64,000 bases of DNA. It comes from Bacteroidota bacterium. GTDB taxonomy: Bacteria > Bacteroidota > Bacteroidia > UKL13-3. The position numbers and the translations under genes are program-made. Below, in pieces: positions 9,334 to 36,944 of this stretch (within the stretch, counting starts at the first letter, position 1; each line of letters begins with the position of its first letter). The notes below the pieces were generated by a model, which was given only the letters and a program-made list of their open reading frames with translations, was not told where the DNA came from and searched no databases. The DNA lies in assembly GCA_013298895.1 (NCBI GenBank), contig JAAFJM010000001.1, positions 186,001 to 250,000 of the forward strand, written 5' to 3'.

Positions 9334-10221
9334 TTAATCTTTACTTGCTTTAAATAGAAGTTCTTTTTCCGACTTACTTAAGCTTTCATAGCCACTTTTA
9401 CTTATTTTATCAAGAATAGCATCTATATCGGCTTGATTTGGCTTGTTTATATTGTTGGCTGTGATTGGCCTATTTTTACTCTCTCCTTTATGATGAATAG
9501 TAAGTTTAGATTTAGGTTTAAATATATTACCAAAGAACGAACTAACTGAATGTACTGCATTGGTAAAAGCATTATTGGTATATAAATATTTAATAAATAA
9601 ATAGCCAGCCAATGCACCTCCTAAATGTGCAATTCTTCCACCTGCATTACTGCTTGGAATATTGAGTAAATCAATTAAAACACTAAAAATAGCTATGTAT
9701 CTTAACTGAACAGCAAAAACGCCAAATAACATGACAGTATATTGGGGTAATAAAGTGGCTGCAGCAGTAACCATGGCTAAAACCCCAGCTGATGCTCCCA
9801 AGGCATAAGAATCAGGTAAAGCATCTTTAAATACAGGAAAAACGTTGTAAAAAAGTAAGTATAACAAACCTCCTCCAATACCACCCAAAAAATATATTTG
9901 ATACACACGCGCATTACCCAAATATTCGTGTAACAACATTCCTAGCCAATACATCCATAACATATTAAATAGTATATGAAAAAAGCCAGAATGCAAAAAC
10001 ATATAAGTTACCAAACCCCATGGATGAGTGATAAAATTAGTTGGAGAAGCGTATAACACAAAAAGTTTTTGAACAGAATCCAAAATATCTGTGGCTTGAA
10101 ATAACCAAAATAATAAATGAGCAATAGCAAAAACTAAATATACAGCCACATTTAGCGCAATGAGTTTTACCACTGCATTATTCTGTGCAAGCTTATATTT
10201 TATATCATCGAAAAAAGACAT
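9334..10221 (-). CDS. Rhomboid-family intramembrane serine protease
   Basis: A 295-residue polytopic membrane protein. The rhomboid catalytic dyad is visible: S144 in GASAGVLAM and H199 in RIAHLGGALAGY. The conserved LFNMLWMYWLG helix motif precedes them. A hydrophilic C-terminal tail of about 60 residues ends in DIDAILDKISKSGYESLSK..., a small helical domain seen at the end of Bacteroidota rhomboids. It should cleave transmembrane substrates within the inner membrane, and the substrate is unknown. It is the last gene of the mutL-rhomboid-rhomboid transcript, 28 bp after the other rhomboid. Confidence 0.9.
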   Translation of the reverse strand: MSFFDDIKYKLAQNNAVVKLIALNVAVYLVFAIAHLLFWLFQATDILDSVQKLFVLYASPTNFITHPWGLVTYMFLHSGFFHILFNMLWMYWLGMLLHEYLGNARVYQIYFLGGIGGGLLYLLFYNVFPVFKDALPDSYALGASAGVLAMVTAAATLLPQYTVMLFGVFAVQLRYIAIFSVLIDLLNIPSSNAGGRIAHLGGALAGYLFIKYLYTNNAFTNAVHSVSSFFGNIFKPKSKLTIHHKGESKNRPITANNINKPNQADIDAILDKISKSGYESLSKSEKELLFKASKD

Positions 10222-10249
10222 AGATTACTTTAATAAAAAAACGAATATA

Positions 10250-11002
10250 TTAATATAATGTTTTACGATTGGTTTTATTCCAATATTTGATCAAAATATA
10301 ACCAAACAACATACCACCCAAATGCGCCAAATGCCCAACATTATCACCTTTAAACTTTCCAAATTCTAGAAAAATTTCTAAAGCAGCCAATCCTACCACT
10401 AAATATTTGGCTTTTACAGGAAATGGAATAATAAACATCATAAGTTCTGTATTAGGAAAAAACATCCCGAATGCCAAAAGAATACCAAAACCAGCACCAC
10501 TTGCACCTACTGTGCAAGTGTTAATTAGGGTATTTATTTGAGCGTAAGTAGTATCAACATAATTTTTACTATTATTATAAAGATCAGTACCGTTAGTCAA
10601 AATAAAGTTAAACTCATCAACACTTATTTGATGAGACAATCGATAAATCATTAAATATTTCACCAAAACATAAAACAATGCAGCTCCAAATCCAGTAAAA
10701 AAATAATAAACTAAAAATCTTTTCCAACCCCAAAGTATCTCAATAGATGAACCTAAAAAAATCAAACCCAACATATTAAATCCTAAATGGGAAAAATCAA
10801 CATGCATAAACATGTGTGTAATCAGTTGGTATGGTTTAAAATTATCACTCAAAGGAGAATATAGCCCTAAGTAATAATACAAATCAATGCCTCTATTTGC
10901 CAATGCATAAGTAGCAATAAAAAAAAGCACATTGATAATAACTAAGTTTTTTACAACTGGAGGAATTCCATACAAACTTGGCGGACGATATTGTTGATAC
11001 AT
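10250..11002 (-). CDS. Rhomboid-family intramembrane serine protease
   Basis: A 250-residue rhomboid with the dyad S169 (GASGAGFG) and H227 (GHLAHLGGMLFGY), and the MFMHVDFSHLGFNMLGL motif. A polar insert of about 45 residues (roughly 120-165) separates early helices from the catalytic helix, longer than in minimal bacterial rhomboids. It lies 12 bp after mutL and before a second, divergent rhomboid. The pair probably has different substrates. No regulatory signal was seen between the genes. Confidence 0.9.
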   Translation of the reverse strand: MYQQYRPPSLYGIPPVVKNLVIINVLFFIATYALANRGIDLYYYLGLYSPLSDNFKPYQLITHMFMHVDFSHLGFNMLGLIFLGSSIEILWGWKRFLVYYFFTGFGAALFYVLVKYLMIYRLSHQISVDEFNFILTNGTDLYNNSKNYVDTTYAQINTLINTCTVGASGAGFGILLAFGMFFPNTELMMFIIPFPVKAKYLVVGLAALEIFLEFGKFKGDNVGHLAHLGGMLFGYILIKYWNKTNRKTLY

Positions 11003-11014
11003 ATTTTTTAAATT

Positions 11015-12865
11015 TTATTTAAACATATTGGCCAAATCGGCCATGCTTAGAGTAAGTAAACAAGCTTTTCCATCTGGCGAGTATTTGGGTTCGCTACATG
11101 CAAAAAGTTCATCTACCATTCGGTTCATTTCATCGGTTGCAAGCACAGTGCCAGCCTTAATTGCTGCCTTTTTGGCTAAAATTTTGGCAATTAACTCATG
11201 TTTGCTATCAGCTAAGTTTTTATTGTTTTTATAATTACTTATCAAATCTAAAATTAACTCATGCTCATTGCTATATTGCATTTCAGCAGGTACGCCATTC
11301 ACCACAAAAGTGCCTTTGCCAAACTCGTTTACATCAAAACCTAAGGTTTTTATTTCGGGTAAAATTTCCAATAAAATACTTTCGTCAATGGCATTTAAAG
11401 TAATGGCTTTAGGAAATAATTTTTGTTGGCTAGCAATAGGTTGCTGTTTAATAGCTGCCAAATATTTTTCGAACAAAATACGTTCGTGTGCCGCCTGCTG
11501 ACTGATAAGTAATAACCCACTTTTAATTTGGGTAGCAATATAAGTTTGCTGTATTTGTAAAAACTGCTGACTGGTTTGCTTATTATTCTCAATTAAGGTT
11601 TGCTGTGCAACGTTATTTTCCGATTTCGGAATTTCAGATGGAACATCAGGTGCAGCTATTTTAAATAAATCTTCCCAATTGGTAGTTTGTTGCTTTTTAA
11701 AATTACGCGAACTGGCATATTCATTTTTCAACCAATCGTTTTTGCCTCCACTTACTTTGCCTACTAGCTGCGTTTCACTACTTTGGATATTGTTGAAATG
11801 TGTAGCTTGGTTATTGTATAAATCGCGGTTTAAAAACTGATTGTCTTCATAGCTTTTATCTAAAGTGGGTGTTTCAAAATTTTCGCCTAACACTTTGCGA
11901 GTAACTGCACGTAATATTTGGTAAATATTGCGCTCATCTTCAAACTTTACCTCTGTTTTGGTTGGGTGAATATTTACATCTACCTTACTTGGGTCAATTT
12001 CAATATTGATACAATAAAATGGATATTGATCTTTGGCAATGATGTTTTCAAACCCACTCACAATGGCGTGATTCAAATAAGCATCTTTAATAAATCGGTT
12101 ATTTACAAAAATATATTGGTCGCCTCTGGTTTTTTTAGCAATTTGAGGTTTGCCAATAAAACCACTTGCATTGATAATGGTAGTTTGTTCCTCAAAAAGT
12201 AATAAATCATCTGGCTTTTTATCGTCAAACAAATCGCTTATTCTAAAAGCCAAATCGGCTGGTTTTAGGTTGTGCATTTGATCATCGTTATGCCATAACT
12301 CAAAACCTATATGTGGATTAGCTAAAGCTGCTCGAGTAAATTCATCAATAATATGGCGCAACTCCACAGGATTTGACTTTAAAAAATTTCTACGAGCTGG
12401 TATATTAAAGAATAAATTTTTAACAGAAATACTGGTTCCTGTTTGCCATGAAATGGCTTCGTGCTTTATGATATTGCTACCTTCAATTAAAATATAAGTA
12501 CCAATGGTATCTTCATTTCGTTTGGTTTTAAGTTCTACTTGAGCCACCGAAGCTACAGAAGCCAATGCCTCACCCCTAAAACCCATTGTTTTTATTTTAA
12601 AAACATCTTCAATGGTTTTTATTTTTGAGGTAGCGTGACGTTCCCAACACATACGTGCATCGGTTTCACTCATTCCTTTTCCATTGTCAATAACCTGAAC
12701 TAAAGCTTTTCCAGCATCTTTTAAAATTAGTTTTATATGTGTAGCGCCAGCATCTATGCTGTTATCTAACAACTCTTTAACTATACTTGCTGGCCTTTGA
12801 ATTACCTCGCCTGCAGCTATTTGGTTAGCCACATGTTCGGGTAAAAGCTTGATGATATCTGACAT
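11015..12865 (-). CDS. mutL: DNA mismatch repair protein MutL
   Basis: A 616-residue MutL. The GHKL ATPase motifs are intact: KELLDNSIDAGA, VIDNGKGM, and TMGFRGEALASVASV. The N-terminal half ends with the DVNIHPTKTEVKF lever segment. A low-complexity Gln/Asn-rich linker covers about residues 330-425, followed by the dimerisation domain. In that domain the segment LLLISQQAAHERILFEKY stands where metal-dependent MutL endonucleases carry DQHA(x)2E(x)4E. The Asp and His are replaced by Ser and Gln, so nicking activity is doubtful. It is the first gene of a three-gene operon with two rhomboids. Confidence 0.96.
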   Translation of the reverse strand: MSDIIKLLPEHVANQIAAGEVIQRPASIVKELLDNSIDAGATHIKLILKDAGKALVQVIDNGKGMSETDARMCWERHATSKIKTIEDVFKIKTMGFRGEALASVASVAQVELKTKRNEDTIGTYILIEGSNIIKHEAISWQTGTSISVKNLFFNIPARRNFLKSNPVELRHIIDEFTRAALANPHIGFELWHNDDQMHNLKPADLAFRISDLFDDKKPDDLLLFEEQTTIINASGFIGKPQIAKKTRGDQYIFVNNRFIKDAYLNHAIVSGFENIIAKDQYPFYCINIEIDPSKVDVNIHPTKTEVKFEDERNIYQILRAVTRKVLGENFETPTLDKSYEDNQFLNRDLYNNQATHFNNIQSSETQLVGKVSGGKNDWLKNEYASSRNFKKQQTTNWEDLFKIAAPDVPSEIPKSENNVAQQTLIENNKQTSQQFLQIQQTYIATQIKSGLLLISQQAAHERILFEKYLAAIKQQPIASQQKLFPKAITLNAIDESILLEILPEIKTLGFDVNEFGKGTFVVNGVPAEMQYSNEHELILDLISNYKNNKNLADSKHELIAKILAKKAAIKAGTVLATDEMNRMVDELFACSEPKYSPDGKACLLTLSMADLANMFK

Positions 12866-13414: not shown

Positions 13415-15292
13415 ATGATAAAATACTATTGTACATTGGTAATGAATTGCGTGTTCTTTTGGGCTTTTGCTCAAACAGAAACCAATGATTCTGCCCAAAA
13501 ATTACAAACAGTATTTATTAAAAGTTTAAGACTAGAAAGTCTAAATAAAAGCACCGTAATTCAAAACATAACTCCAATAGAATTACAAAGCCGACAAGGA
13601 AGCAGCATGGCTGAAGTATTGCAAGAAAACACACCTGTTTTTATTCGCAATTACGGTTCGGGCGGATTGGCTACCGCAAGTTTTAGAGGAAGTAATGCTT
13701 ACCACACCCCTGTAATTTGGAACGGAATTAATATTCAAAACCCCATGAATGGGCAAATTGATTTTAGCAGCATTCCAGTTTTTTTAAGCGATGAAATTAG
13801 CTTGCAATATGGCGGTAATGGTGGAGTTTGGGGAAGTGGCTCTATGGCTGGATTATTATTTATTAATAGCCAAATTGCTTCGCACCAAAAACCCAAAATT
13901 GAACTTTTTACAAGCGTTTTTGATTATGGTATTTTTCAAAATGGTTTTAAAATTAGCTTTAATTACAAAAAACTATTTTCAAGCACTAAGGTATTTAACA
14001 GTTTTGGTAATAATAATTTTGAATATGACTATAAAGGTCAGAATTTTACTCAAAAAAATGCCCATTTAACCAATAATGGTTTTCAGCAAGTATTGGCATT
14101 TACCAAAAATAATAAAACCAATTTTACAGGATTAATTTGGTACAATGAAAGTGAAAAACAGATAGCCCCAAACATCAATGCAGCCAATAATGATGCTGTA
14201 CAAAAAGATAAAAATTTACGCACTGCTATTACCTGGCAAAACAAAACTTTAAGAAGTAATAACGAAATAAAATTGGCCTATTTTTATGATGAAATATACT
14301 TTAAGAGTAACGATATAAGTGCATCAAATAATAAGAGTTATACCTACAATATTTCTGCTGAAAAAAATTATTCTATAAACACCAATAATTCAATCCATTT
14401 GGGAATCATAAACTGGTTAGCTTTTGCCAATGTTGACGGTTATAACGAGCAGGTAAATCAGAATAGATTAGCAGCATTTGTGTATTTTAAAAACACCAGT
14501 AAAAACAAAAATACTCAACAACAAATTGGCTTAAGAAAAGAATTGGTAAACGCAGATTTTATTCCCTTTATGCCCAGTTATTATTTACAACAAAAAATAC
14601 TTAAAAATATATTGTTAAAAGTGAATGTAGCTGCAACTTATCGCTTGCCTACTTTTAACGATTTATATTGGAAAAACGGTGGCAATTTAAACCTACAATC
14701 AGAATATGGTTGGGGAACAGATTTGGCCATCAATCACATCAAAAAAATCAAAGCATTTGCGTTTGACTATACCTTTTCGTTGTTTTATAAAACCACCGAA
14801 AATTATATACAATGGATTCCTATTAACTCAGCTATTTTTTCGCCCATCAATATTGGAAATGTTAATGCTAGAGGAATAGAAATATTGGCAAAAAATGCTG
14901 TGAGTTTCAATAAAAACAACTTGTTTCAGCTTAACTATATTGGAAGTTTTTTACAAGCAATTGATACCAAAACAGAGCTGCAATTGATATTTACACCAAG
15001 AATAAAACATGTATTTAATGTAATTTATAATTATCAAAATTTAACCATCAAATACAACCATACTTATACCGGTGTAAGCTTTACCAAAAGTGATTTAAGC
15101 GAATGGAATAATGATTTTGAATTAGGGAATCTGTCAATTTCAAAAACCACTAATTTCAAAAATCAGAACGATTTAAATATTCAATTAGGTGTGAATAATA
15201 TTTGGAACAAGAGCTTTCAAGTAATGCCCGATAGACCAATGCCACTAAGAAATTATCAAATAACTTTACAATATTCACTTACAAAACAATAA
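13415..15292 (+). CDS. btuB: TonB-dependent vitamin B12 receptor, BtuB-like
   Basis: A 625-residue outer-membrane receptor with a signal peptide ending FAQ, a plug domain (VLQENTPVFIRNYGSGGLATASFRGSN is its family hallmark region, about residues 67-95), and a 22-strand-type barrel ending in a Tyr-rich strand (ITLQYSLTKQ). It takes cobalamin across the outer membrane using TonB energy. The substrate assignment rests on the cobalamin riboswitch directly upstream and on the BtuG-like gene downstream. No long N-terminal carboxypeptidase-like domain of the SusC type is present. The next gene starts 7 bp after its stop, so the locus is an operon. Confidence 0.92.
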   Translation: MIKYYCTLVMNCVFFWAFAQTETNDSAQKLQTVFIKSLRLESLNKSTVIQNITPIELQSRQGSSMAEVLQENTPVFIRNYGSGGLATASFRGSNAYHTPVIWNGINIQNPMNGQIDFSSIPVFLSDEISLQYGGNGGVWGSGSMAGLLFINSQIASHQKPKIELFTSVFDYGIFQNGFKISFNYKKLFSSTKVFNSFGNNNFEYDYKGQNFTQKNAHLTNNGFQQVLAFTKNNKTNFTGLIWYNESEKQIAPNINAANNDAVQKDKNLRTAITWQNKTLRSNNEIKLAYFYDEIYFKSNDISASNNKSYTYNISAEKNYSINTNNSIHLGIINWLAFANVDGYNEQVNQNRLAAFVYFKNTSKNKNTQQQIGLRKELVNADFIPFMPSYYLQQKILKNILLKVNVAATYRLPTFNDLYWKNGGNLNLQSEYGWGTDLAINHIKKIKAFAFDYTFSLFYKTTENYIQWIPINSAIFSPINIGNVNARGIEILAKNAVSFNKNNLFQLNYIGSFLQAIDTKTELQLIFTPRIKHVFNVIYNYQNLTIKYNHTYTGVSFTKSDLSEWNNDFELGNLSISKTTNFKNQNDLNIQLGVNNIWNKSFQVMPDRPMPLRNYQITLQYSLTKQ

Positions 15293-30667: not shown

Positions 30668-32677
30668 ATGACCACATCACCTAAATATACCAATGCATTA
30701 ATTCATGCTTCAAGTCCTTATTTATTGCAACACGCACACAATCCAGTAAATTGGGTAGAGTGGAGCGAAGAAACGCTGCAAAGGGCCAAAAACGAAGACA
30801 AAATGATATTGGTAAGTATAGGTTATTCGGCTTGCCATTGGTGCCATGTAATGGAACACGAAAGTTTTGAAAACGAAGAAGTGGCCGAACTGATGAACCA
30901 ACACTTTATTTGCATAAAAGTAGATAGAGAAGAACGCCCCGATATTGACCAAATTTATATGGATGCAGTGCAATTGCTAACAGGCAGAGGAGGTTGGCCG
31001 TTAAACTGTTTTGCATTGCCCGATGGAAGACCCCTGCATGGTGGTACTTATTTTCCTATTGAGCAATGGAAAAAAACATTGCAATCCATTGCCGATTTTT
31101 ATAGAGATAGAAAAGAAGAAGCTTTTCAATATGCGGCTGAATTAACCAGTGGCATCAATAAATTAGACCATATTATTCCTGTAGAAAATGCAGAAATTAA
31201 ACTTGAAACCATTGATAAAGCAGTGGAAAACTGGAGCAAAAACTTCGATTTAATTTATGGCGGTTATAATTGGGCACCCAAATTCCCTATGCCTAATAAT
31301 TGGGTGTTTTATTTACAATATTACAAACAAAGCAATAATCCTTTGTATTTAGATGCTGTTATTAAAACACTAGATGGCATGGCAAATGGCGGCATTTTTG
31401 ATCAAATAGAAGGAGGATTTGCGCGCTACAGTACCGATTTATATTGGAAAGCACCTCATTTTGAAAAAATGCTTTACGATAATGGTCAGCTTGTGGGTTT
31501 ATATGCCAACGCTTATCAGTTAACTAAAAATAACCTTTACAAAGACATTGTTTACAAAACCCACCAATTTTTACAACATGAACTAACCCACGAAACAGGT
31601 TTATTTTATTCGGCCTTAGATGCCGATAGCGAAGGTGTAGAAGGAAAATATTATATATGGACACGCCAAGAATTGGTAAGTATTTTAGGCGATGATGAAC
31701 CTTTGTTTAGCATTTATTATTCGGTAGATGCATATGGAAATTGGGAACATGGGGCTAATATTTTATACAAAACACGCAGCCACGAAGGGTTAGAAAAATT
31801 AACGGGTAAAACCATTATTGAAATAGAACAAATCATAAAAAAATGCAATACCTTATTGCTTACCGAACGCAATAAAAAAACCAAACCGGGACTAGATGAT
31901 AAAGTAATCACAAGCTGGAATGCATTGATAATTTCAGGCTATTGCGAAGCTTTTAAAGCATTTGGAGAAAATGCATTTTATACCACAGCACAAAAGGCAT
32001 TGGATAGCATTTTACAATACCTTTGGGTAGATAAAACTTTATATCGAATTTATAAAAATGGTAAAATTAGCATTCCGGGTTTTGCAGAAGATTATGCTTG
32101 TTTAACCAAAGCTTTGATTGATTTTTACCAAATTAGTTTTGACGAAAAATATTTAATAAAAGCCAACGAGTTAATGGAACTAAGCAAGGCTTATTTTTAT
32201 AGCGAAGAAAAAAAATTGTTTTACTTTAAATCGAATACGGATGCTGCTTTGATAGCGCGCAAGTTAGATTTAACCGATGATGTAATACCAAGTGCCAACA
32301 GCATATTTGGGCATTGTTTGCAAGCCTTGAGTTTTTATTTTAGCAATAACCATTACGAAAAAATGGTGGATGACATGCTGCTTTTGGTGCAGCAAAAATT
32401 TGCCAAAACTACCAGCAGTTATACCAATTGGATGCAATTAAGTTTAAATAAACTACAAGGGGTAAAACAAATAGTAATAGCCGGACCCGAAGCCAAAAAT
32501 TATTTTGAGCAATTAAACCAAAACTATTTGCCCAATACCCTTTTTGCATTGGCAGCAGAACAATCGGTTATTTCCTTGGTAAAAGACAAATTACCCATAG
32601 AAAACAAAACCACCATTTATATTTGCCAAGATAAAACTTGCGGATTGCCTGTGTTTAGTTTGGAAGGGATAGGTTAA
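30668..32677 (+). CDS. yyaL: YyaL-like DUF255 thioredoxin-domain protein
   Basis: A 669-residue protein of the YyaL/SSP411 family. The N-terminal DUF255 thioredoxin-like domain holds [12 protein letters not shown] and the CxxC motif in [14 protein letters not shown]. The rest is an alpha/alpha-toroid resembling glycan-processing enzymes ([29 protein letters not shown]). The biochemical role of the family is not settled. No signal peptide is seen. Its last ~70 bp (from 32607) recur twice downstream at 34232 and 36648, marking the edge of an accessory island. Confidence 0.92.
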
Positions 32678-32697
32678 AAAATTCTTTATTATTTTAT

Positions 32698-32803
32698 ACC
32701 GCAAAGGTCACTAAGGTTTTTCGCAATGAACGCAAAGATTTGATTTAAAACTGAAACTTCTTTTTGCGAACTTTGCTTTTGCCTTTGTGTACTTTGCGTT
32801 TAA
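32698..32803. repeat. ACCGCAAAGG palindromic repeat, copy 1
   Basis: A ~106-bp imperfect palindrome beginning ACCGCAAAGGTCACTAAGG and ending CTTTGTGTACTTTGCG. Inner words CGCAATGAACGCAAAG and TTTTTGCGAACTTTGC pair with each other. A second copy, about 90% identical, lies at 36739-36842. In both places it follows a copy of the yyaL 3' end by about 20 bp. Confidence 0.8.
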
Positions 32804-32912
32804 ATTATTTCTTATTAAATGTAATATATACAAATTGTATTATCCGCAATCGCTAGCTTCCCGCAAGTATGCCTATTAAAAAGCCTTTGGCAAAAAAATA
32901 CCAAAACCGCTT

Positions 32913-33098
32913 TAGGTAATAATAACTTGTTTGGTTGCAGCAAAAGAATATTGATAAAAAAATAAGGAGACCTTTTGATGGTTTTTAGTGTAAAAAATTA
33001 AATTCGTAAAATATAAAATGTGTTAAAAGTTACATAAAGCCAACACTAATAAATAGGCTTTGTATAGTTTTGTTACATATATAAACAAGTTATGTAGC
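32913..33098 (+). repeat. Upstream module of cargo cassette 1 (with promoter-like box)
   Basis: About 185 bp directly before the TIR gene, repeated before the orphan gene at 35611-35798 with roughly 85% identity. Shared words include GACCTTTTGATGGTTTTTAG, TGTAAAAAATTAAATTCGTA, ATATAAAATGTGTTA and TAGTTTTGTTACA. TAGTTTTG at 33065-33072 matches the -7 consensus and lies 52 bp before the start codon. In the other copy the distance is 46 bp, so the module plausibly supplies the promoter. Identity ends just after AAACAAGTTAT, some 25 bp short of the cargo start codon. Confidence 0.8.
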
Positions 33099-33123
33099 AT
33101 TTTAAAACGACACCTACAAAAAT

Positions 33124-34062
33124 ATGAACGCACTTGAAAAGATAAAGTTAATTGACGACATAGGAACTACATTACAATCACGTATGACATTTTCTGAAAT
33201 TGACGCTTATTTCAGTGCCTATGGAATTCCAACTGACCATCAGCCGAGTTATAATAGTAAAAGGGTTTATGTTAAAGAAATTCTTCCAAAAATTAATGAT
33301 GACATAGTAATTCAAATTGCCAATGAGCTACAAATAGAACATAATTATAATAACAAGTTGCCTACATTTAAAGACTCGACAACTACTTTTTGGAAGACAG
33401 GCCATTTCAAATTATTTATAAGCCATCTTTCGGCATTCAAAAAAACAATTGGACATTTAAAGACAGATTTAGAAAAATATGGTATCAGTTCTTTTGTAGC
33501 ACATGAAGACATCGAACCAACCAAGGAATGGCAAGAAGAAATAGAAAAAGGACTTTTTTCAATGGATGCTTTGTGTGCGGTTTTAATGCCTGGATTCAAA
33601 GAGAGTAATTGGACAGATCAGGAGGTTGGAGTTGCAGTCGGACGTGGAGTACTTGTAATACCAATAAGAAAAGAACTCGACCCATATGGCTTCATAGGAA
33701 AATATCAAGGTTTTCAAGCGGTAGGGAAAAATGTTGATCAAGTTGGAGAAGCAATTTTTTTAATAATTTCTAAGAATCCAAAGACTCGTAACAGAATAAT
33801 TTCCTGCTTAGTTGATTTGCTCTTGCTTTCAAATAATAAGACTGAAGCGTTAGAGAGAATAAATGCGATAAGGAAAATTAATGACTTACCTAAAGAAAGA
33901 GTTATTCAAATGAAAACTGGATTTACAGAAAATGACAACCTCAAGGACATCGAAATAATTAGAAATTTCAATGAACTGATTAAGCTATATAATATTCAAG
34001 GAGTAAAACTTAAAGATTTTGACAAGGTTCAAGAAAAAGAAAGTGATGACTTACCTTTTTAA
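33124..34062 (+). CDS. TIR-domain protein with SSB-like C-terminal tail
   Basis: A 312-residue soluble protein. Residues 1-90 form a mostly helical N-terminal region not recognised. Residues 95-205 are a TIR domain: box 1 KLFISHLSAF (96-105), HEDIEPTKEWQEEIEKGL in the BB-loop region, and SNWTDQEVGVAVGRG, whose E167 sits where catalytic TIR domains carry the NAD-hydrolysing glutamate. A helical C-terminal region ends in EKESDDLPF. That tail equals the DDLPF end of the SSB-like DUF3127 protein encoded 2.9 kb downstream. Frequent GAC and ACA codons differ from the neighbours. A defence NADase is likely from the domain but unproven. Confidence 0.85.
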   Translation: MNALEKIKLIDDIGTTLQSRMTFSEIDAYFSAYGIPTDHQPSYNSKRVYVKEILPKINDDIVIQIANELQIEHNYNNKLPTFKDSTTTFWKTGHFKLFISHLSAFKKTIGHLKTDLEKYGISSFVAHEDIEPTKEWQEEIEKGLFSMDALCAVLMPGFKESNWTDQEVGVAVGRGVLVIPIRKELDPYGFIGKYQGFQAVGKNVDQVGEAIFLIISKNPKTRNRIISCLVDLLLLSNNKTEALERINAIRKINDLPKERVIQMKTGFTENDNLKDIEIIRNFNELIKLYNIQGVKLKDFDKVQEKESDDLPF

Positions 34063-34091
34063 AATGAACTAAGAAAAAACGATAGATAATA

Positions 34092-34290
34092 GGCGTTTGG
34101 AAAAAAAGCAGGTTCAGTGCTTAAATGAACATTCGGTTTTCAAATAAACATTAGTGCTAAACGGAAATTAAGTGGTTTTAAATCCGCCAACTCCTTGTAG
34201 CTTAAAATCGTTACCTCAACCCCATTTATATAAAACTACCATTTACATTTGCTAAGATAAAACTTGCGGATTGCCTGTGTTTAGGTTGGA
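34092..34290 (+). repeat. Downstream module of cargo cassette 1 plus partial yyaL 3' copy
   Basis: The first part (34092-34231) shares GGTTCAGTGCT, CCGCCAACT, TTACCTCAACCCCATTTATA and intervening words with the module after the orphan gene (36491-36647). It runs into 34232-34290, a degenerate copy of the last bases of yyaL (ACTACCATTTACATTTGC, AAGATAAAACTTGCGGATTG). The copy diverges before the yyaL stop codon. No coding capacity. Confidence 0.75.
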
Positions 34291-34665
34291 AAACCTCATC
34301 TGTGGTTAAATAATAAAATTAACCCCACTATCCGTAAAGTTAGCAAAGCGCTCAAGGGATTTATAATGAATGTAGTGTCTCCAACATTGGCCTAAAAAGT
34401 AAAGTTATTTGCATTTGTTTTACCGAAGCGTTATCAATAGCATAGAAAACCAATTTTATTTACTTTTTTTTTATACTTTTATAGGCATATTTAAACTCAT
34501 TTTGTTTCCTTTAGCTAACGGATTTACAGTCTGTTGTTAGTGTTCATGATTTAAAAACGAAAGACATAGACATTGACAAAACAAATACAAATACCAAAAA
34601 ATATTTACATTTAAACTTTTATAGCAAACTCCATTCATTATAAAAAACAGCTACTAATAAAAAAA
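34291..34665. other. Spacer before the SDR gene
   Basis: No gene is visible on either strand. A 30-bp AT-rich word (CAATTTTATTTACTTT and following) at 34451-34480 recurs at 35490-35518 beyond the SDR gene, so the SDR gene too is framed by a short direct repeat. A TTGTTAGTG-containing palindrome-like stretch lies near 34520-34540. Confidence 0.45.
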
Positions 34666-35367
34666 ATGATAGTATTAAAAGACAAAAATGCTTTAGTGAC
34701 AGGATCGAGCCGTGGCATTGGGCAACAGATAGTAGAGGGTTTAGCAAAATTAGGTTGCAACGTAATTGTACATGGGCGAACAAAAGAAAGTTGCACTACT
34801 ACTCTTCAGCTTTTACAAAAATATCCTGTGAAAAAATATTGCGTTTATGGTGTTTTGTCTGATGAGAATCAGGTCAATGATTTGATTAAGCAAGTACAAA
34901 ATTTAAATATTAGGATTGATATTTTATATAACAATGCAGCAATAATGACACCATATCAGCAAGATTATTGGAAGCACAGTTGGGAGGATTGGATGATGAG
35001 TATGAAAGTGAATGTTTTTGCAATGTATAGTTTGTGTAGTTCATTTATTCCACCAATGATTGAGAACGGTTTTGGACGAATAATTAATCTTACTTCAAGT
35101 ATAAAAGACCAACCAGAACTCGCACCTTATGGAGCATCAAAATGGGCAGTTAATAAATTGACTGAAGATATCGCAATAAAACTTGTTGGCACTGGCGTTA
35201 GAATAAATACCCTTGACCCAGGATGGCTTCGAACTGACTTAGGGGGTGAATTTGCCGAACATCCTGTAGAAGCAGTTTTGCCTGGAGCTCTTGCCCCAGC
35301 GCTAATTGACGATAATGGGCCAAATGGCGATTTTTTCTCAGCAATTAACCATCATCTTGATTTGTAG
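34666..35367 (+). CDS. Short-chain dehydrogenase/reductase (SDR)
   Basis: A 233-residue classical SDR. The cofactor motif TGSSRGIGQ, the NNAA motif (ILYNNAAIM) and the catalytic YGASKWAVNK (Tyr-x-x-x-Lys) with the upstream Ser in NLTSSIKD are all intact. It would oxidise or reduce a small alcohol/ketone substrate with NAD(P); the substrate cannot be read from sequence. It stands alone between the two repeat-framed cassettes, has a terminator 210 bp downstream, and is flanked by a 30-bp direct repeat, so it is probably part of the acquired island. Confidence 0.88.
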   Translation: MIVLKDKNALVTGSSRGIGQQIVEGLAKLGCNVIVHGRTKESCTTTLQLLQKYPVKKYCVYGVLSDENQVNDLIKQVQNLNIRIDILYNNAAIMTPYQQDYWKHSWEDWMMSMKVNVFAMYSLCSSFIPPMIENGFGRIINLTSSIKDQPELAPYGASKWAVNKLTEDIAIKLVGTGVRINTLDPGWLRTDLGGEFAEHPVEAVLPGALAPALIDDNGPNGDFFSAINHHLDL

Positions 35368-35578
35368 TTTTGCTTTTAAATACAACCAACAACGTAAACT
35401 AAGCATAGTTGTAGCAAAGCAATATGTTATAATAATGTATTATGGTTATGTGGGATAAATAGTTCCATGTGTTTTGACTATTAAAAAAACAATTTTATTT
35501 ACTTTGATTTTTATACTTCGCACTCGCTCGCATATTGCGAGGGAACATTTCAATAAGCCTCTGGCTTGCAAAAACTTT
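35368..35578. other. Spacer after the SDR gene
   Basis: No gene is seen. It contains the second copy (35490-35518) of the AT-rich word found before the SDR gene, then a GC-richer stretch with CGCTCGCATATTGCGAGG. Confidence 0.4.
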
Positions 35579-35610
35579 AAACGCTTTAACTAAAACTAAA
35601 GCGTTTTTTT
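35579..35610 (+). terminator. Intrinsic terminator ahead of cassette 2
   Basis: A 10-bp perfect stem AAACGCTTTA / TAAAGCGTTT with an 8-nt loop and a T-run. It insulates the promoter-bearing module of the next cassette from transcription coming from the SDR gene. Confidence 0.8.
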
Positions 35611-35798
35611 AGGTAAGAAGAACTTGTTTTTTGCAGCCAAAGAATAATGATAGAAAAATAAGAAGACCTTTTGATGGTTTTTAGTGTAAAAAATTAAATT
35701 CGTAAAAAATATAAAATGTGTTAGAACTTACAAAAAGCCAATACTAATTAGAAGGCTTTGAGTAGTTTTGTTACACATATAAACAAGTTATAAGCAAC
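35611..35798 (+). repeat. Upstream module of cargo cassette 2 (with promoter-like box)
   Basis: Second copy of the ~185-bp module seen before the TIR gene. The TAGTTTTG box is at 35763-35770 and homology ends after AAACAAGTTAT, about 20 bp before the start codon of the orphan gene. The cargo genes that follow are unrelated, so the module, not the gene, is the conserved unit. Confidence 0.8.
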
Positions 35799-35815
35799 CT
35801 TAGAGACACTGCATC

Positions 35816-36484
35816 ATGGACAAAACACTATCATATTTTGTTTATAGGCCACCCAAATCAAATTCACACGGACATGGGGTGCGGGACAAAAACGTAAGAC
35901 GTGCAACTCAAAACCTTATTGACAGTTTTGTAACTAGTTTTAAAGCGACAACCGACAACAGGCTTCAATTGACGTTAAGTTACGATAAGAATAACGAATT
36001 GCAAAAAGCGCATAAGACAATTGAGAAGCTTAACGAATTCTTAGGTATTTCAAAAAGAGAATGGGACAACGCAGGTTTTGAGAATATGGACAATACAATT
36101 ACTTGGGAAAATGAAAATACAAATATTCTAGAGTTCTTATATTATGTTGAAAAACTAAAAGACGATAGTTATTTACCGTTATCTAGATATTGGATTTCTT
36201 CCTTTTATCAATACGGGAAAAGTCCCGAGCCTAATGGACATATTATGTGTTCAATTGAAGCAGGAAGACTTTTTGTTAGACTGCACTTAATTATCCCTTA
36301 CCCAATTGACAACGATAAATGTTACGAACTGATTTACAAATTTCACAAATCACTTCCTTTTAAATTAAATGGTAATCATTTTAGAAGACTTGGACCAAGT
36401 AAAAGAGGGTATGGACAATGGAAACTAGACGAAGAAACTCAAAAACGACTTGACGAATGTTTAATAAAATCGAAGGCGAAATAA
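35816..36484 (+). CDS. Orphan cargo protein of unknown function
   Basis: A 222-residue soluble protein with no signal peptide and no domain I recognise. Visible features are a basic, His-containing start (RPPKSNSHGHGVRDKNVRR), a central charged region, and a C-terminal GNHFRRLGPSKRGYGQW segment that could bind nucleic acid. Codon use (GAC, ACA) resembles the TIR gene more than the neighbours. It shares both flanking modules with the TIR gene, so it was probably captured at the same kind of site. A defence or stress role is only inferred from that company. Confidence 0.7.
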   Translation: MDKTLSYFVYRPPKSNSHGHGVRDKNVRRATQNLIDSFVTSFKATTDNRLQLTLSYDKNNELQKAHKTIEKLNEFLGISKREWDNAGFENMDNTITWENENTNILEFLYYVEKLKDDSYLPLSRYWISSFYQYGKSPEPNGHIMCSIEAGRLFVRLHLIIPYPIDNDKCYELIYKFHKSLPFKLNGNHFRRLGPSKRGYGQWKLDEETQKRLDECLIKSKAK

Positions 36485-36490
36485 AGGCTG

Positions 36491-36720
36491 TTTATAATAC
36501 GGGTTTGGCAAAAGTGGTGGTTCAGTGCTCCTAGACAAATTTGTAGTTAATCAAAGTTTGGTTCTTCGCATCAATCCCGATGCATCGGGATGGTGAAAAT
36601 CGCCAACTTCTTATAGCTGCGAATCATTACATCAACCCCATTTATACAAAACCACCATTTACTTATACCAAGATAAAACTTTCGGATTGCCTTTGTTTAG
36701 TTTGGGGGGGATTGGTTAAA
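36491..36720 (+). repeat. Downstream module of cargo cassette 2 plus yyaL 3' copy
   Basis: 36491-36647 corresponds to the module after the TIR gene (GGTTCAGTGCT, CGCCAACTT, TACATCAACCCCATTTATA). It also carries an 18-nt perfect palindrome, ATCCCGATGCATCGGGAT at 36574-36591, absent from copy 1. 36648-36720 is a decayed copy of the yyaL 3' end including its stop region (GATTGGTTAAA). The short reading frame through this stretch is built from repeats and is not a gene. Confidence 0.75.
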
Positions 36721-36738
36721 ATAATTCTTTGCTTTTTT

Positions 36739-36842
36739 ACCGCAAAGGTCACTAAGGTTTTTCGCAATGAACGCAAAGATTTTATTTAAAACCGAAACTT
36801 ATTTTTGCGAACTTAGCTTTTGTCTTTGTGTACTTTGCGGTT
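36739..36842. repeat. ACCGCAAAGG palindromic repeat, copy 2
   Basis: About 104 bp matching 32698-32803, with complementary ends ACCGCAAAG and CTTTGCGGT at the borders. It follows the yyaL 3' copy exactly as copy 1 follows the real yyaL, marking the far edge of the island. Confidence 0.8.
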
Positions 36843-36944
36843 AAAATATTTTTTATTAAAAGTAAAATAAACAAATTGTACTTTTAAAATCAATAAACTT
36901 TCCACAACATTTATTATTTAAAAATAAAGTATTTTATTTGCCAT

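Follow-up and report, generated by a model that had tools for sequence, protein, structure and literature searches.

Two putative integrase-less integron units in a Bacteroidota genome and a candidate recombinase class lacking the IntI-specific domain

How do two genes without mutual similarity come to lie between copies of the same modules? The question is raised by a TIR-domain gene and an orphan gene in the window, by which we mean the whole 64-kb stretch of DNA analysed here. A sequence-only reading had described a shared module of ~185 bp before each gene and a second shared module after it, and had likened the arrangement to a cassette system that lacks an enzyme of its own or is mobilised in trans. 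The layout was confirmed (Table 1), including both reading frames, the upstream module (89% identity over 185 bp, E 2.5e-64), a related module of ~140 bp 3′ of each gene, and a TAGTTTTG box upstream of both ATGs (33065-33072, at 51 bp, and 35763-35770, at 45 bp). The cassette interpretation is likewise supported, since each unit appears to consist of an attI-type site with promoter, a gene and an attC site, in a genome where neither IntI nor the recombinase class described below (X-type) was found at the thresholds given there. Judging from sequence comparison, tracing these modules has likely led to a widespread integron class of Bacteroidota, whose likely recombinase lacks a domain thought essential for all integron integrases.

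Table 1 Features of the locus, in window coordinates
Feature	Coordinates	Strand	Remarks
yyaL-like gene (DUF255/Thioredox_DsbH), intact	30668..32677	+	flanking copies derive from its 3′ end with intergenic sequence (32604-32839)
Upstream module 1: attI-type site and putative promoter	32911..33093	+	profile match 33015-33092; predicted crossover G33089^T33090
Cassette 1: attI crossover to attC R′ core G^TT	33090..34210	+	predicted limits
TIR-domain gene, 312 aa	33124..34062	+	Pfam TIR_2 1.2e-13; weak ThsB-like PADLOC matches
attC 1, hybrid/degenerate	34083..34218	+	halves of two types, GGCGTTTGG (left) and CGCCAACTCCTTGTAGC (right); R′ reads GTTACCT, R″ is altered (TAAT)
Partial yyaL 3′ end	34232..34322	+	tail resembles that of relative G044
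SDR gene, 233 aa	34666..35367	+	between the two units
Upstream module 2: attI-type site and putative promoter	35608..35791	+	profile match 35713-35790 (E 6e-6); predicted crossover G35787^T35788
Cassette 2: attI crossover to altered R′ core ATTA	35788..36626	+	predicted limits
Orphan gene, 222 aa	35816..36484	+	no Pfam or PADLOC match
attC 2, hybrid/degenerate	36491..36634	+	R′ ATTA in place of GTTA; R″ TAAT
yyaL 3′-end copy and its downstream intergenic sequence	36646..36880	+	89% to 32604-32839

The upstream and downstream modules

By homology, the two upstream modules are identified as integron attI-type insertion sites with a putative promoter. An attI profile built solely from sites adjoining the X-type recombinase in related genomes (24 sites) returned them as its first and second matches in 64 kb (PWM 35.6 and 27.9 bits, next 6.1; nhmmer 6e-6 and 0.003). 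Identity between the modules ends exactly at ...ATAAACAAGTTAT, and a G^TT crossover would fall within the ATAAACAAG^TTA of the upstream module. Module 1 also carries an AAAGCC...GGCTTT hairpin. We take the TAGTTTTG box to fit the Bacteroidota -7 box TAnnTTTG, and a promoter of this type would drive the first cassette. Half of the attI regions (21 of 42) contain a TAnnTTTG box, usually positioned between -85 and -96 (~90 nt ahead of the crossover), against a shuffle mean of 2, and a box of this type is also present in both window modules. Its placement counts against a full correspondence: in the window units the box follows the attI hairpin, whereas beside X-type it lies about 90 nt upstream.

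The downstream modules are identified, by covariance-model matches and homology, as attC sites that are hybrid and partly decayed. Where the sequence-only reading had seen no canonical attC core, cmsearch places attC sites with altered R boxes in both positions (attC 2, E 2.4e-11; attC 1, E 1e-9; next best in 64 kb, 0.43). The model was started from a site picked by eye, a choice on which neither the controls nor the phylum sample depend. Single genes stand in tandem in relatives G044, G037, G036 and G013, each followed by a long hairpin, and copies of one such hairpin, used as a blast query, turned up in 10/10 genomes of the genus. Homology between unrelated cassettes spans R″ AAC to R′ GTTA, 16 of the 17 stem pairs show compensatory change in a 15-sequence alignment, and bottom-strand folds follow the attC plan of paired R box, 4-nt unpaired spacer, L box and stem. 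As in integrons, cassettes are bounded by attC sites with a conserved hairpin and R″/R′ boxes with AAC/GTT. Arrays of G039 and G041 likewise contain hybrids of the two stem types seen in the window. Longer arrays exist elsewhere in the window genome, with at least 8 attC on one contig (G000:C37, L109) and 4 on another (G000:C7, L110), and no integrase was found there either.

Each gene and its downstream attC hairpin would thus form a cassette, inserted at attI by site-specific recombination. The earlier idea of a promoter and 3′ sequence travelling as one frame around exchangeable genes fits less well in its strict form: in an integron the attI site and promoter would be a fixed platform, and it is the gene that would move, with its own attC. 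The orphan gene was absent from every other genome of the genus searched. Scanning the 10 kb around this locus against Rfam gave no match.

The downstream module is indeed shared by both genes, but its right-hand tail, overlooked in the sequence-only reading, is yyaL 3′-end sequence. A copy of this 3′ end follows each attC, the first matching over 60 bp (34232-34291, 93%). This tail is local flank and not part of the cassette, and cassette recombination does not account for the copies, which look like the product of a 3′-end-targeted insertion that restores the host gene. In relative G040 yyaL directly adjoins the DUF3127 gene, indicating that this whole region is an insertion; the SDR gene, with its surroundings (34306-35615), occupies the same place in G044 (94.7%) and is therefore older than both cassette units.

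Several repeats accompany the region. The yyaL-like 3′ end is a recurrent insertion point, present in three copies in the window genome (30668-32839, 34205-34322 and 36596-36880) and in two each in G036, G044 and G037 (further coordinates: L125 541-1283; L119 1738-1810; L120 8904-9201); in G037 an unrelated lipoprotein-like gene sits between the copies. REP-like, hairpin-rich repeats of ~115 bp (CACTCGCTAGCATCTTGCTAGTGAG ... AACCGCTTTAGcc..CTAAAGCGGTT; L033 5541-5770 and 8365-8711; window 35516-35610) stand three in tandem before the attI-type module of G044 and as one divergent copy before window module 2. A 37-bp direct repeat (89%) lies on both sides of the SDR gene (34443-34478 and 35482-35518) and is possibly another frame.

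The yyaL copies bear on the best-surviving alternative, a local tandem duplication of a promoter/terminator frame in which one gene was replaced by homologous recombination or decay, with no site-specific system involved. They flank both units and show clearly that duplication or re-insertion has taken place here, and in the window genome the 185-bp module occurs in its two known places only. Against duplication as the whole explanation, identity stops precisely at G^TT, the same point as in independent X-type attI sites, and attC sites are present. The sequence-only reading had proposed searching this and related genomes with the module, and would have yielded to a local duplication with no other cargo in any genome; the search found the module in G044, G036, G037 and G013, at the head of other cassettes. 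A scan of all GTDB contigs with an upstream-module pattern returned two MAGs only. We consider this alternative improbable.

The X-type recombinase beside related arrays

Sub-threshold IntI matches include a class of recombinases of 345-383 aa, often 1-3 kb before attC or at contig ends. Around 40 candidate loci we counted 65 attC matches in 412 kb, compared with 0 in 323 kb around 20 XerC/D control loci. When attC were placed against the recombinase gene (n=59), 54 lay downstream on the same strand, 0 downstream on the opposite strand and 5 upstream. An attI site is found 70-130 nt past the X-type stop codon, as a conserved region with repeats ending TATAANNAAG^TTA. Contigs L172 and L179 end exactly at the GTTA crossover, as expected if the population holds different cassettes there. 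Likewise, two homologous plasmids (Chryseobacterium sp. SNU WT5 and C. oryzae) share 90% identity across the recombinase gene and attI as far as ATAAACAAGTT, beyond which they diverge into different cassettes. At 20 further X-type loci across the phylum, four of them on single-contig chromosomes, same-strand attC arrays follow the gene in 20/20, and attI was located by regex at 18 and by eye at the other 2, where it differs slightly. The window genome (98.6% complete) has no X-type protein reaching E 1e-60 and no IntI above cut-off. The earlier remark that no integrase is present therefore stands for this genome, while the likely enzyme exists in relatives.

The X-type proteins differ from integron integrases in the very region used to recognise them. 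The spacing from KGxKDR to HxLRH is 58-59 aa in 31 X-type proteins and 60-62 in archaeal XerA, versus 100 in typical IntI (IntIs in which both motifs were found in order), and the IntI-specific insertion (~41 residues, I2 helix region) is missing in 31/31 X-type proteins measured. The alignment of X-type to VchIntIA (2a3v) falls into two stretches and lacks the IntI-specific part; TIGR02249 is likewise matched in two stretches, at 201-208 bits, below the curated cut-off of 265 and with model region ~180-238 unmatched. The best-scoring known family is archaeal XerA (NF040815, ~210-223 bits; PDB 4a8e, 5hxy), with four X-type proteins at the border of its curated cut-off of 220 (222.7, 221.6, 220.4 and 209.6 bits). 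Unlike archaeal XerA, X-type adjoins attI and cassette arrays, and 4a8e and 5hxy fall outside the X-type clade. In the tree, X-type forms one clade (100/99) apart from XerC/D and IntI. A clade of X-type with IntI is neither required nor rejected (AU p=0.56), and X-type may accordingly be a living relative of the stage preceding IntI's gain of the additional domain. Canonical IntI (TIGR02249) was rejected as the integrase in the genus, where all matches fall below cut-off.

X-type loci otherwise resemble canonical integrons. Both have attI beside the recombinase gene, with a promoter (putative for X-type) close by, attC hairpins that comprise R and L boxes, an unpaired spacer and a G^TT crossover, and same-orientation arrays of mostly single-gene cassettes with a variable cassette at attI; in the window, attI is present without an adjoining integrase gene. 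Besides lacking the ~40-residue IntI-specific insertion (~200 bits versus the 265-bit cut-off), X-type differs in an N-terminal extension of ~80 residues, a gene oriented the same way as its array, and an attC R-L spacer of 4 nt on one side and ~1 on the other.

The missing domain is where earlier work counts against a role in integration. The additional domain of IntI has been reported as necessary for activity in the IntIs studied (Messier and Roy 2001, as cited in PMC2426708). It is treated as defining, and surveys identify integrases by the IntI-specific domain (PMC2426708, PMC8352920); the domain, or I2 helix, is held to be the innovation that enabled single-strand recombination (PMC7790495, PMC4792948). 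We found no description of a patch-less integron integrase or of Bacteroidota attC arrays in the open-access literature, and a prior description elsewhere is possible.

Integrase-less units and their distribution

Taken together, we read the window as two integrase-less, one-cassette integron units, for which the X-type of relatives is the most likely integrase (probability roughly 0.86), because the same attI architecture sits behind X-type and is followed by same-strand cassette arrays. This reading draws on sequence-level evidence, namely site homology and architecture, hairpin covariation, recombinase location and orientation, and exact divergence points. In this scheme cassettes would enter attI as circles, with X-type acting on the folded attC strand. 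We infer excision and integration by X-type from comparative support, the plasmid divergence at G^TT and the contig ends at the crossover. As the window genome has no X-type gene and both attC are altered, its cassettes are probably stranded, or movable in trans only, and the current mobility of attC with altered R boxes is doubtful.

The window pair also has the features of a CALIN, with two attC 2.4 kb apart in a genome without IntI over cut-off or X-type at E 1e-60, and attC cassettes without any integrase found. It differs in retaining an attI-type site for each cassette, with one cassette each, and in that the cognate enzyme in relatives would not be IntI. Secondary insertion at attG (Loot et al. 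2024, cited in PMC12444791) likewise leaves attC cassettes away from the integrase; the window insertions lie instead at attI-type sites, although secondary insertion near the yyaL end is possible.

The units could be an ordinary CALIN, with cassettes both made and moved by canonical IntI of other hosts and X-type an unrelated neighbour. Integrase-less CALINs are a known category (PMC9024848, PMC8618304), and canonical IntI is present in 84 of 296 sampled phylum genomes. However, IntI is negatively associated with this attC type, which was found in 23/84 genomes with IntI versus 101/212 others, and among the matches listed IntI occurs in one genome of the window's class. Within the family, attC was found in 62/62 genomes searched and canonical IntI above cut-off in 1/62. 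The attI sites and arrays, moreover, physically adjoin X-type. An ordinary CALIN is, in our estimate, slightly less probable still than duplication. The single canonical IntI of the family (L118 1388-2400, G005:C58) is split across two reading frames near a contig end.

Least probable is that the genes are passengers of another element, such as an IS91 type with a tyrosine recombinase, whose ends or resolution sites the hairpins would be: an IS91 transposase and a different tyrosine recombinase do occur by attC in G036:C45 and within the C. oryzae plasmid array, but that recombinase is ruled out as the enzyme by its separate tree group and its location, and X-type loci have multi-cassette, same-strand arrays in which a single hairpin follows each gene or small group of genes, and their attI lies at a fixed distance. 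The IS91-family transposases with their own tyrosine recombinase lie at L111 7580-9885 (G036:C45) and, inside a cassette array, at L217 10969-12911.

Beyond the genus, attC of one structural type was found in 124/296 genomes of the phylum sample, with an Xer-like enzyme at array heads, whereas the IntegronFinder 2.0 survey lists one complete integron in Bacteroidetes and otherwise integrase-only elements (PMC9024848). All genomes with a strong X-type carry attC (31/31, versus 93/265 others; p=1.6e-13), the cut-off for strong X-type (1e-110) having been chosen after scores were seen. Counting against a simple pairing of enzyme and site, attC is still present in 78 of the 189 sampled genomes without strong X-type or IntI, which may point to losses, to gaps in the assemblies or to a third enzyme; many of the genomes sampled are MAGs.

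We think it fairly probable that these data reflect a phylum-wide integron class of Bacteroidota in which the integrase does without the I2/additional domain when recombining folded attC hairpins, and of which the window units are orphaned platforms. If so, a large and unsurveyed pool of mobile single genes exists, including defence-like ones such as the window TIR gene. If X-type is active, it does what the I2 helix is thought to have enabled, and the origin of integron recombination becomes directly testable.

Two further observations concern plasmids. In the Chryseobacterium plasmid array L216, a cassette-like unit of ~150-170 bp, nearly or entirely devoid of coding sequence, recurs at 10150-10325, 12244-12420 and 14626-14800. 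The Salmonella IncC plasmid CP082616.1 (L218 4001-4480) carries a recombinase fragment that shares 67% identity with X-type across 160 aa, close to macrolide-resistance genes and an IS91-like element, which hints that relatives of X-type extend to plasmids of Enterobacteriaceae.
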